This document shows positions 8,016 through 37,216 of a stretch of 39,401 nucleotides of DNA, piece after piece (the first letter of the stretch is position 1; every line of letters begins with the position of its first letter). The DNA lies in assembly GCA_020072565.1 (NCBI GenBank), contig JAIQGI010000052.1, positions 1 through 39,401 of the forward strand. Reading direction: 5' to 3'. A program made the position numbers and the translations under genes. The notes below the pieces were generated by a model. The model was given only the letters and a program-made list of their open reading frames with translations. It made no database searches and was not told where the DNA came from. Source of the stretch: Terriglobia bacterium (GTDB lineage Bacteria > Acidobacteriota > UBA6911).

Positions 8016-8168
8016 CCTGACGGTCCTTTCTCGTCGTCAAACTGCGCCGGGCAAATTCTAACGCAGCGGCGGCCCTGGTGATAGGTGCGCCGCATGACTC
8101 AATACCGGCCTACTCTCGAGTCCCAGGCTGAATTCCTCATGAAGCAGAAGCGCTGGCGCCGGCGGCGC

Positions 8169-8266
8169 GGCAAAAGCTCTTGCACGCCGACCAAGGCCGA
8201 ACGGTCGGCGCCGGTCAGCGTTTCTCCGCGTCCAAAACTGCATTTTGGTCGCACATAGATGAACAA
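8169..8266. repeat. 98-base dispersed element, copy A (candidate structured RNA)
   Basis: This segment matches 32671-32768 at about 90 of 98 positions with no gaps. Two stem-loops are predicted: CGCCGACC (8185-8192) with GGTCGGCG (8203-8210), and GCG-T-CCAAAA (8228-8237) with TTTTGG-T-CGC (8243-8252). In copy B the first stem keeps pairing through a G-U pair and the second is unchanged. The rest of the 337-base gap (8016-8352) holds nothing else that I recognise. A minus-strand open frame across it is not supported as a gene because most differences between copies would change amino acids. Confidence 0.75.
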
Positions 8267-8352
8267 CCCGGGCTGAAAGCGCCTCAAAAACTCAAAGACT
8301 CGAAGCCGCGAACAGAGACAGCGGTGAGATGAATTCCGCTCCGGGGCCATGG

Positions 8353-31451: not shown

Positions 31452-32468
31452 ATGAACCGCCGCAAGTTTGTTGTTACATCCACCATTTCGATGTTGGCGA
31501 TCACCATTGCCGTTGTCGGTCTGGCTTACTATTCGGATTTTGCCGCCAGGGCCTTCCACCAGAATCTGCCCGAGGCCATCAACTATCTCCCTGCCGATAC
31601 CCAAGCGGTGTTCGGGATGAACGTGCAGAAATTCATTGCCTCGCCCGTCTACAGCCAGATCATGGAGAAGCACAGCCAGGAGATCGGCACAAATCTTGCA
31701 GAGTTCATTGACAAGACCGGCGTGGATCCACGCCGGGATCTCGACTATATCATCGGTGCAGGGAGAGCATCGCAACAGAAAGGCGCCGGCGTTATCATCG
31801 CCGTGGGGAGGTTCAATCCGGATCAGATCACTGCTTTCATCAATAGCCAGGCTATCATCAATAACCACACAACCCCGATCAAGCTTGATTACAACGGCGC
31901 TACCGTGCTGATGATTCCCGAGACCAGCGCAAACGGGGCGAAGCTCGAGAAGGGAATTGCTTTCCTCAACAACTCGCAGATAGTGCTCGGGGACCTGGAA
32001 TCGATCCACGCCGTCCTCGATGCATACAAACGGGGGCCTGTGGCCGGCAGCAACGCTAACATCTCGGCCATGGTGGCGAACCTGGATCCGAAAGAGATGT
32101 TCTGGTTCGCCGGTGATGCCACGGTTCTGGCGAAAGTGCCGCCAAATACTCCGTTCCTGCCGTCTCTGTCCGCGATTCAGAACGTTTTTGGAACGCTGGA
32201 CTTGACCACTACCATCAACGGCAGAGTCACGGTGACTGCGAGAGACGCGACGGCGGCAGGCCAGCTGGCCGATTTCGCGCGTGGACTTGTTGCCTTGGGG
32301 AACCTGGCAGGCAGCCAGAATCCGGATCTGGCTGCGTTGGTTGCAGGGGTGCACATCGTTCAGAATACACAGAATGCGAACCGGTTCGATATCACTCTCA
32401 CCGTTCCGATCGATTTGCTGCAGAAACTTGAAGCCACGAAGTCTCAGATAAAGGCCCAGATGAAGTAG
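31452..32468 (+). CDS. exported or membrane-anchored hypothetical protein
   Basis: A 338-residue protein. It starts MNRRKFVVTSTISMLAITIA and continues to GLAYYSDF, a signal sequence or anchor with no lipobox Cys. The remainder is a soluble alpha/beta sequence without known catalytic motifs. Two stretches look repeated in style (NLPEAINYLPADTQAVFGMN, and later PKEMFWFAGDATVLAKVPPN), a pattern seen in proteins with duplicated beta-grasp-like halves, similar to DUF3352-type lipoproteins; this is a weak resemblance. GGAGG six bases before the ATG at 31452 and the promoter at 31263-31292 set the start. It is followed by a strong inverted repeat and converges on mdh. Confidence 0.78.
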   Translation: MNRRKFVVTSTISMLAITIAVVGLAYYSDFAARAFHQNLPEAINYLPADTQAVFGMNVQKFIASPVYSQIMEKHSQEIGTNLAEFIDKTGVDPRRDLDYIIGAGRASQQKGAGVIIAVGRFNPDQITAFINSQAIINNHTTPIKLDYNGATVLMIPETSANGAKLEKGIAFLNNSQIVLGDLESIHAVLDAYKRGPVAGSNANISAMVANLDPKEMFWFAGDATVLAKVPPNTPFLPSLSAIQNVFGTLDLTTTINGRVTVTARDATAAGQLADFARGLVALGNLAGSQNPDLAALVAGVHIVQNTQNANRFDITLTVPIDLLQKLEATKSQIKAQMK

Positions 32469-32507
32469 ATTCGGGGGCTGCATCCGGAGCCGGAGAGTCA
32501 TACCGCC

Positions 32508-32563
32508 AAGACCTCCAGGAGATCAAAGGAACAGGCTGAGCCCTTTGATCTCCTGGAGGTCTT
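32508..32563. terminator. 22-base perfect stem, probable two-way terminator
   Basis: AAGACCTCCAGGAGATCAAA with GG (32508-32529) is an exact reverse complement of 32542-32563, with a 12-base loop. CGTGTTTT follows on the plus strand. It lies 39 bases after the hypothetical gene stop and before the end of the convergent mdh gene. Confidence 0.6.
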
Positions 32564-32642
32564 CGTGTTTTAGCCTGAGTTACTCATGGAGCAGAACCGC
32601 ACGCCCGTGAAAAGCAACAAAATTGGACGCAGATAAACGCAG

Positions 32643-32768
32643 GCAGGAGCTTTTGCCATCCTGTTTGCCCGGCAAAAGCTCCTGCACGCCGATCAAGACC
32701 GAACGGTCGGCGCGGGTCAGCGTCTTTCCGCGTCCAAAACTGCATTTTGGTCGCACATTCATGAACAA
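32643..32768. repeat. 98-base dispersed element, copy B, with an extra stem
   Basis: The segment 32671-32768 matches 8169-8266 at about 90 of 98 bases. The first hairpin is CGCCGATC (32687-32694) with GGTCGGCG (32705-32712), where the C-to-T change leaves a G-U pair, and the second is unchanged (32730-32739 with 32745-32754). Only this copy has a further 15-base perfect stem, 32643-32657 with 32671-32685, formed by CAGGAGCTTTTGCC and its complement plus one flanking pair. It fills the end of the 306-base gap between the hypothetical gene and the convergent mdh gene. Confidence 0.75.
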
Positions 32769-32774
32769 TCAGGA

Positions 32775-33707
32775 CTAGAGCTTTGTCTCTTCAACGGTTT
32801 TCCGGACAGAGGCCACGGTTTTCTGGAGCATGGCCTTCTCGTCTTCGGCGAGCTTGATCTCGAAGATCTTTTCCAGACCCTTGGCGCTGATCAGGCAGGG
32901 GACGCCGAGGAACAGGCCCTGAATGCCGTATTCGCCTTCGCACAGGGCTGCGCAGGCCAGGACCCGCCGCTTGTCGCGGAGGAACGACTCGGCCATGCTG
33001 ATGGCGCTCCAGGCCGGGCTGAAGTAAGCCGAGCCTTTGCCGAAGAGCTTCACGATCTCGGTGCCGGCCTCGCGGGTGCGGGTGACGAGGCGGTCTATTT
33101 GCTCTTTGGTTGCGATCTCGGTCAAGGGCACGCCGCCCACGGTTGTCAACCGGGGCAGGGGAACCATGTCAGGTCCATGACCGCCGAGAACCGTGCCGGC
33201 GACGTCAGCCACGGACACGCCCAGTTCCATGCCGATGAAGGCGCGCCATCGCGCGGTGTCGAGCGTCCCGGCCATGCCGACGATCTGGTGTTTGGCGAAG
33301 CCGGTCAGCTTGTAAAATGCGTAGACCATAGCGTCGAGAGGATTGGTCAGGACGATGCAGAAAGCCTTGGGCGCATGCTTCTTTACCCCGGCGGCCACAT
33401 CCGAGATGATCTTGAGGTTGACGGCGAGCAGATCTTCCCGGGTCATTCCGGCCTCGCGCGCCTTCCCGGCAGTTACGATGATAACGTCCGCACCGACGAT
33501 GTCCTGATAATCGGTAGTGGCGGTGATATTGGCATCATAGTTGCCGTGCGGCGCCATCTCCATCAGGTCGAGAGCCTTGCCCTTGACCACGTTGACATAA
33601 CTGGGAACGTCGACGACGACGATGTCGCCGAGCTCTTTCTGGGAGGCAAGCATGGCCACACCCTGGCCGATCTGGCCGCCGCCGACGACTACAATCTTTT
33701 TGCGCAT
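32775..33707 (-). CDS. mdh: malate dehydrogenase (LDH/MDH-like)
   Basis: A 310-residue NAD-dependent enzyme that interconverts malate and oxaloacetate. The dinucleotide loop is GGGQIGQG (9-16) with Asp33 (VVDV) for NAD, Arg84 and Arg90 in KAREAGMTRED contact the substrate, Asp150 and Arg153 (LDTARWR) and His177 (GGHGPDMVP) complete the catalytic site. This arrangement fits the LDH-like MDH group common outside enterobacteria. AGGAG six bases before the ATG at 33707 beats an ATG 15 bases upstream. It is the last gene of the TCA cluster and lies 80 bases after icd, with a small hairpin (33732-33750) in the gap. Confidence 0.95.
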   Translation of the reverse strand: MRKKIVVVGGGQIGQGVAMLASQKELGDIVVVDVPSYVNVVKGKALDLMEMAPHGNYDANITATTDYQDIVGADVIIVTAGKAREAGMTREDLLAVNLKIISDVAAGVKKHAPKAFCIVLTNPLDAMVYAFYKLTGFAKHQIVGMAGTLDTARWRAFIGMELGVSVADVAGTVLGGHGPDMVPLPRLTTVGGVPLTEIATKEQIDRLVTRTREAGTEIVKLFGKGSAYFSPAWSAISMAESFLRDKRRVLACAALCEGEYGIQGLFLGVPCLISAKGLEKIFEIKLAEDEKAMLQKTVASVRKTVEETKL

Positions 33708-33731
33708 GGAGACTCCTTTCATTAAAGAGCC

Positions 33732-37050: not shown

Positions 37051-37128
37051 GCCCTTTCAGGGCTCACTTTTCTCCTGCTCTCACCCCGGCCTCACGGCCG
37101 GGGCTACTCTCTGGCGCCCCTTTGGGGC
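37051..37128. repeat. three consecutive GC hairpins between sdhA and sdhC
   Basis: GCCCT-TTC-AGGGC (37051-37063), CCCCGGCC-TCAC-GGCCGGGG (37084-37103) and GCCCC-TTT-GGGGC (37116-37128). They occupy the middle of the 304-base gap 36913-37216, which has no gene. They could stall or process the sdh transcript, or be an intergenic repeat; no T-run follows on the minus strand. Confidence 0.6.
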
Positions 37129-37216
37129 TTGGATGTTCCATGGTCGTCACTATATTTCTTGATCATCAATAGGCGCTCATCTGAAACAGTCACTCGTCTA
37201 TTCTGACTCCTGTCTT

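Follow-up and report, generated by a model that had tools for sequence, protein, structure and literature searches.

The window, by which we mean the whole stretch of DNA analysed (39,401 nt, contig C52 of a genome assembled in 135 contigs), carries a repeat at 8169-8266 and again at 32671-32768. Direct comparison within the window gave 8 mismatches in 98 positions without a gap, as the original prediction had stated, and a repeat search of the window extended the ungapped similarity to 110 nt at 89% (8165-8274 and 32667-32776). The gene calls likewise agreed with the claim that the two copies are intergenic and share one orientation, and neither is overlapped by an ORF of at least 90 aa. The two stems that had been described are also present in both window copies: the core hairpin of copy 1 (8185-8210, forward strand; CGCCGACC/GGTCGGCG; helix 5 in the pair counts of the family) is kept in copy 2 (32687-32712, forward strand) through one G-U pair, the result of a C to T change at 8191, and the subterminal hairpin around CCAAAA-CTGCA-TTTTGG (8228-8252, forward strand; helix 6; in full GCG.CCAAAA-CTGCA-TTTTGG.CGC) shows no difference between the copies, loop included.

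Anatomy of the element

A 40-copy alignment and an iterative profile search showed that the 98-base repeat makes up only the right-hand portion of a longer element, which also matches its own reverse complement. The element starts with CC[CT]GAATTATTC[AG]TGAA and has the same sequence in inverted form at its far end, so that terminal inverted repeats of about 17 bp (CCYGAATTATTCRTGAA) are found at both ends, as in a MITE. At 99-321 bp, and with no long ORF over the window copies, it also has the small size and non-coding character of a MITE.

Copy 1, identified by the profile search and the copy table, is an internally deleted subfamily A element of 146 bp (8127-8272, forward strand) that lacks most of what lies between terminal repeat and core hairpin in the left arm. 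Its left terminal inverted repeat (GCTGAATTCCTCATGAA) occupies 8127-8143 on the forward strand and its right one, which is degenerate, 8256-8272 on the reverse strand, as placed by the copy table and the sequence; the flanks are CCAG and CTGA, without a recognisable target duplication. Copy 2, delimited by the profile search and by an empty site described below, also belongs to subfamily A, measures 201 bp (32574-32774, forward strand) and is complete at both ends. By the copy table and the sequence, its terminal inverted repeats lie at 32574-32590 (forward strand) and 32758-32774 (reverse strand). An inner hairpin at 32643-32685 (forward strand; GCAGGAGCTTTTGCC/GGCAAAAGCTCCTGC), found from the fold and the context of the loci, is read as what would remain of a long central foldback. 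On the left, copy 2 is bordered by the target-site duplication TTAG (32570-32573), which agrees in three of four bases with the right duplication CTAG (32775-32778). The copy table and the gene calls place within this CTAG the TAG stop of a malate/lactate dehydrogenase gene (32775-33722, minus strand).

The longest copies, L028 and L106, reach 321 bp, and L106 is flanked on both sides by TTAA. Besides these there are size classes of 201, 172, 152 and 116 bp and others, which would have arisen by deletions at the centre of the foldback. The inner segment carries two side hairpins. In both 321-bp copies, which belong to subfamily B, these are on the right arm; in subfamily C they are on the left arm in the long copy L199 and on the right arm in L042. 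A genome search with the loop hairpin gave 69 matches (34 forward, 35 reverse). Among seven loci whose context was read, L199 and L200 (one place), L203, L208, L211 and L214 proved to be copies of the element or of its subfamily C, and L197 a core-like fragment whose ends are not clear. Because the loci read were of this kind, we take the loop hairpin as part of the element, and the idea that it is an independent REP was dropped. One copy (L015:1501-1680, near 14400-14580 of contig C80 in the same genome) appears by eye to be chimeric, with the right half of a subfamily A element and, as its other arm, an inverted right half resembling that of subfamily C.

Copy number and distribution

The original prediction called for a search for further copies, and these were found in number within the same genome. 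A 106-base query from copy 1 gave at least 41 matches at E ≤ 0.001, including the two in the window and one weak match of 66 bases, and a 173-base query around copy 2 gave at least 44, the best 40 of more than 130 first-look candidates having been scored for each query. The recurrence of the window repeat, at no fewer than 41 matches to the copy 1 query, is far beyond chance. The terminal pattern was matched 65 times at up to three mismatches and, in its 17-base form at up to two mismatches, at 153 ends, with no match to the reversed control in either case. When the listed positions were clustered, the element was found at 80 places of the 7.46-Mb genome, or at 96 places in 46 contigs if the 16 places known from a single end are included. 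These counts are lower bounds, derived from the first 100 of the 153 terminal matches and from the 40 best candidates of each longer query.

The original prediction also called for a search of related acidobacterial genomes, and the element was not found in any other genome searched. Among 60 related genomes, the terminal pattern (up to two mismatches) occurred in the own genome alone. A 180-base query from L020 matched 8 of 396 genomes of the phylum, namely the own genome and seven others with only 21-37 aligned bases, in a search of limited sensitivity in which the best two candidates were scored per genome and near-identical records were possibly absent; the seven short matches are read as probable chance hits or a solo end. 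Exact patterns had no match in genome_contigs (two patterns), in viral_contigs or in plasmids. As far as searched, then, the family would appear to be confined to one genome. A distant genome contains a perfect 21-base match to the left flank and terminus of the element (L184; G350:C10:29596-29616); it is a single end, with neither a partner end nor a transposase nearby.

Target duplication, empty site and gene context

We compared the four bases on either side of 53 distinct copies. They agreed in four of four positions in 16 copies, in three in 22, in two in 13 and in fewer in 2, leaving 15 of the 53 with two matching bases or fewer. Shuffling the right flanks among copies for 2000 rounds gave a mean of 4.6 and a maximum of 12 full matches, compared with the 16 observed, and a target-site duplication, another mark of a MITE, is thus present in the family. 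The preferred target is YTAR (TTAA, CTAG, TTAG, CTAA), and CTGA is used as well.

A search with the 2561 bases around copy 2 covered 15 genomes of the family, the own genome included. Apart from the own genome, G001 is the sole member of the genus among the genomes listed. There too the two convergent genes adjoin each other, the malate/lactate dehydrogenase gene (Pfam Ldh_1) matching at 81% and the gene upstream giving weaker, piecemeal matches. The spacer between them, on contig C23, measures 105 bases versus 306 in the window (32469-32774), and the difference of 201 equals the length of copy 2. The site of copy 2, the one site tested, is therefore empty in the genome of the same genus, as expected for a MITE insertion. 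The dehydrogenase gene ends with the TAG inside the CTAG flank in the window, versus TGA in G001. The G001 spacer also contains a terminator-like hairpin. In the window, a strong inverted repeat at 32508-32563, lying after the gene that ends at 32468 and before copy 2, is likely a terminator; the hairpin in G001 occupies the same place and differs from it.

According to a simple codon-usage gene caller, 52 of the 53 copies lie outside called genes. Where genes were called on both sides (45 copies), their arrangement was convergent in 14, tandem in 22 and divergent in 9. In 10 of the 53 copies a gene pointing at the element stops at its edge, with the inner three bases of the flank as its stop codon. 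Since TAA or TAG occurs in YTAR whichever strand is read, an insertion at a stop codon restores the stop within the duplication. Two different copies, L023/L064 at the end of contig C30 and L074 at the end of contig C14, are followed by the same unrelated sequence: CAATACTGTTCACTTAAC... begins three bases past the CTAA flank and leads into the start of an ORF, MARTVAELPSGSRITDYISLGV, which may be transposase-like. This looks like another insertion sequence that prefers this spot.

Fold of the copies and selection on structure

One possible hypothesis is that the element is a conserved structured RNA, either cis-regulatory or a non-coding RNA, with stems maintained by selection in the cell. Intact copies do fold far better than shuffles: L106 reaches −189.7 kcal/mol (z −12.78), the subfamily C copy L199 (317 bp, folded with 4 bases on each side) reaches −160.5 kcal/mol (z −8.46), and the full folds of copy 2 and of another intact copy give z −5.19 and −4.97, respectively. 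The full fold of copy 1, which is missing an arm, is barely exceptional (z −1.98, with 5 of 200 shuffles as good).

If the stems were conserved as RNA, paired changes should be evident among the copies. We tested a structure of 58 pairs, named from copy 2, on alignment A1 of 37 of the 53 distinct copies; the 16 outside A1 are the two of 321 bp, the subfamily C copy L033:2946-3094 and 13 heavily deleted copies of 99-146 bp, which include copy 1. Across the 37 copies, pairing was retained in 86.6% of stem cells versus 86.5% with shuffled partners (equalled or exceeded in 112 of 500 shuffles), covariation scored 0.075 versus 0.071 (39 of 500), and pairs with double changes numbered 6 versus 5.3 (215 of 500). 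Covariation beyond chance, as an RNA family would have, was thus not seen in these 37 copies. Sliding the partners reduced pairing to 36-45%, as is expected of an ancestral palindrome. The RNAalifold consensus fold amounted to only −3.15 kcal/mol, and a search of the window at the Rfam gathering thresholds gave no described family at the repeat. The sole Rfam match in the window is Acido-Lenti-1 (RF01687) at 37084-37129, with 51.5 bits. The "stem-preserving changes" of the original prediction, which had their basis in one G-U pair, accordingly failed to hold up across the 37 copies.

Mean divergence from the consensus of the own subfamily is 8.6% in A (27 copies) and 6.5% in B (10 copies). In subfamily A the stems are slightly less diverged than the loops (209/2688 versus 201/2058), a small difference that is nominally significant (z about 2.4 by hand calculation) and would be in keeping with selection on stems; in subfamily B the figures are 66/1031 and 52/791. 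Because the difference in A is nominally significant, we call the decay of the copies largely, and not provably purely, neutral. Three paired double changes in hairpins also set subfamily C apart from A and B (C-G to A-T in 4 of 4 aligned C copies, G-C to C-G in two, C-G to T-A in one), as selection on a structured RNA would predict. These are few events, however, and selection on an amplifying master or copying from arm to arm explains them equally well. In view of these changes, the fold may have had a role during the mobile phase of the family.

Weighed against the good folds, the paired changes of subfamily C and the slightly lower divergence of the subfamily A stems are the lack of covariation above shuffles, the weak consensus fold, the missing arm of copy 1, the occurrence of copies in every gene arrangement, the absence of the element from the other genomes searched (60 genomes, and 396 of the phylum) and the lack of an Rfam match. 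We regard a structured RNA with stems under cellular selection as very improbable; with no covariation beyond shuffles over the 37 copies, a conserved cellular RNA is not supported.

Termini common with IS1380 elements

Because the 4-bp YTAR duplication pointed away from IS630, we sought the parent among other families. A PF13701 search of the own genome gave five matches, remnants included. In one remnant (L125), TTAGCCCGATTAATTCATGAA, which is 2 mismatches from the end of the element, lies inverted within 58 bases after a transposase fragment; this 113-aa fragment (P0002) has matches in 17 of 149 genomes, the own genome included. The terminus of the element was present at up to three mismatches in 14 of the 32 loci L125-L156, some of which overlap (L127 with L125; L146 and L150 with L126), and the reversed pattern in none. 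In shuffles of the IS1380 loci it was found in 0.04 loci per round, and among 26 control loci only in L158, which holds a copy of the element itself. The terminus was absent at this threshold from the other 18 IS1380 loci, some of which are cut or are internal fragments.

Five IS1380 elements of relatives have both ends, 1.60-1.70 kb apart, and fully duplicated flanks that are YTAR-like, as are those of the element: TTAG in L131, CTAG in L136, CTAG in L147, ATAA in L132 and TTAG in L145. In L149 the flanks match in three of four bases. The transposases of L131, L136, L132 and L128 match PF13701 and score 342.8-427.5 bits against an NCBIfam IS1380 cut-off of 180. The likeness concerns the outer 17-21 bp of both termini. 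The element lacks a transposase gene and is far shorter (99-321 bp versus about 1.6-1.7 kb); no IS1380 element was identified as the origin of its interior, and its foldback was not seen in the IS1380 elements of the fetched loci. Ends in common with an autonomous element, as a MITE should have, are thus found with the IS1380 elements of relatives, whereas the own genome has remnants only: no IS1380 element combining these termini with an intact transposase was found in it. It does encode an intact 501-aa IS1380 transposase of 294 bits (L123; contig C44, 12812-14155), but the ends of the element are absent at up to 5 substitutions from this 4.3-kb locus, in which no clear alternative ends were seen.

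Alternatively, a MITE with a 4-bp duplication might have been moved by another DDE family, for example of the IS5 or IS630 type. IS5-group elements also give 4-bp YTAR duplications, and the genome has three matches to the IS630-type DDE_3 domain (PF13358). None of the three DDE_3 loci carries the termini at up to three mismatches, yet IS1380 loci do; no link to IS630 as parent was found, and we find another DDE family hard to credit. Mobilisation as a REP/REPIN-type palindrome by a RAYT (Y1) transposase is suggested by the palindromic, extragenic nature of the element and by eight Y1_Tnp matches (PF01797) in the genome, but we discount it almost entirely: the element has a target duplication, which Y1 enzymes are not known to make, its termini match a DDE-type IS family, and at the eight RAYT loci no gene is flanked by the palindrome, the element occurring at one of them only as a separate subfamily C copy about 1.2 kb from the gene (L158).

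Discussion

The terminal inverted repeats, the duplicated YTAR flanks, the IS1380 elements with the same termini and the empty site in a genome of the same genus lead us to propose that the element is a non-coding palindromic MITE of the IS1380 family, spread by an IS1380-type transposase (probability about 0.92). The original prediction had offered two readings of the repeat, and it is the non-autonomous mobile repeat that these observations strongly support, in place of the candidate structured RNA. An IS1380 transposase acting in trans would have recognised the ends of the element, moved it and inserted it at YTAR. The foldback would then have been shortened by central deletions to the 201, 172, 152 and 116 bp forms and others, the family probably spreading in few bursts. 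The present copies would be decaying largely neutrally, the IS1380 parent in this genome presumably lost or broken. We are thus probably dealing with a new MITE family of a well-known sort and not with a new regulatory RNA.

A further question is whether the foldback was part of how the MITE moved and not a passive by-product. If so, paired changes would have preserved the hairpins in the masters from which subfamilies A, B and C were amplified, and the opposite orientation of the inner segment among long copies would look as if arms had been copied from each other. It would point to a stage as a cruciform or as a single-stranded hairpin, or to palindrome-templated repair, in an element mobilised by IS1380. 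We think that this is unlikely, though worth bearing in mind.

As a MITE of the IS1380 family, the element resembles several known systems. ERIC/IRU, Correia/NEMIS and RUP are also small, extragenic, high-copy repeats with terminal inverted repeats and a target duplication, strongly paired if transcribed, and RUP is presumed to be mobilised in trans by IS630-Spn1, an IS with the same ends (PMC2229807). The element differs from them in its 4-bp YTAR duplication and IS1380 ends, theirs being of the TA type with IS630 ends, and its longest form (321 bp) exceeds the < 200 bp given for bacterial MITEs in the same paper. For the Paracoccus IS1380-family element IS1247, a 5-bp duplication is tabulated in PMC3281130. 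The eukaryotic piggyBac elements have a similar 4-bp TTAA-like duplication with TTAG/CTAA variants, and IS1380 transposases form the outgroup of the piggyBac tree (PMC10813416); the comparison of the element with piggyBac concerns the duplication only. REP/REPIN sequences are likewise palindromic extragenic repeats in many copies, but the element is unlike them in its target duplication, DDE-family ends and lack of a RAYT link. Among the titles listed in literature searches, none concerns an IS1380 MITE or such a MITE family in Acidobacteria, which is weak evidence of absence.

The family adds an apparently IS1380-mobilised MITE to a field best known from IS630-type ends. Within one genome there are roughly a hundred places, three subfamilies, a graded series of sizes and nearly perfect foldbacks, and the subfamilies allow structural selection during amplification to be separated cleanly from later neutral decay. 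The case also cautions against taking an intergenic repeat for evidence of a functional RNA on the sole grounds that it is dispersed, can fold and shows a G-U change. The window contains a repeat family separate from the MITE as well: 28-nt units of the type CTCAGCGCAGAGACCGCAGAG are dispersed at five positions (7071, 16347, 19280, 20530 and 39124) and are 68-86% similar to the first.
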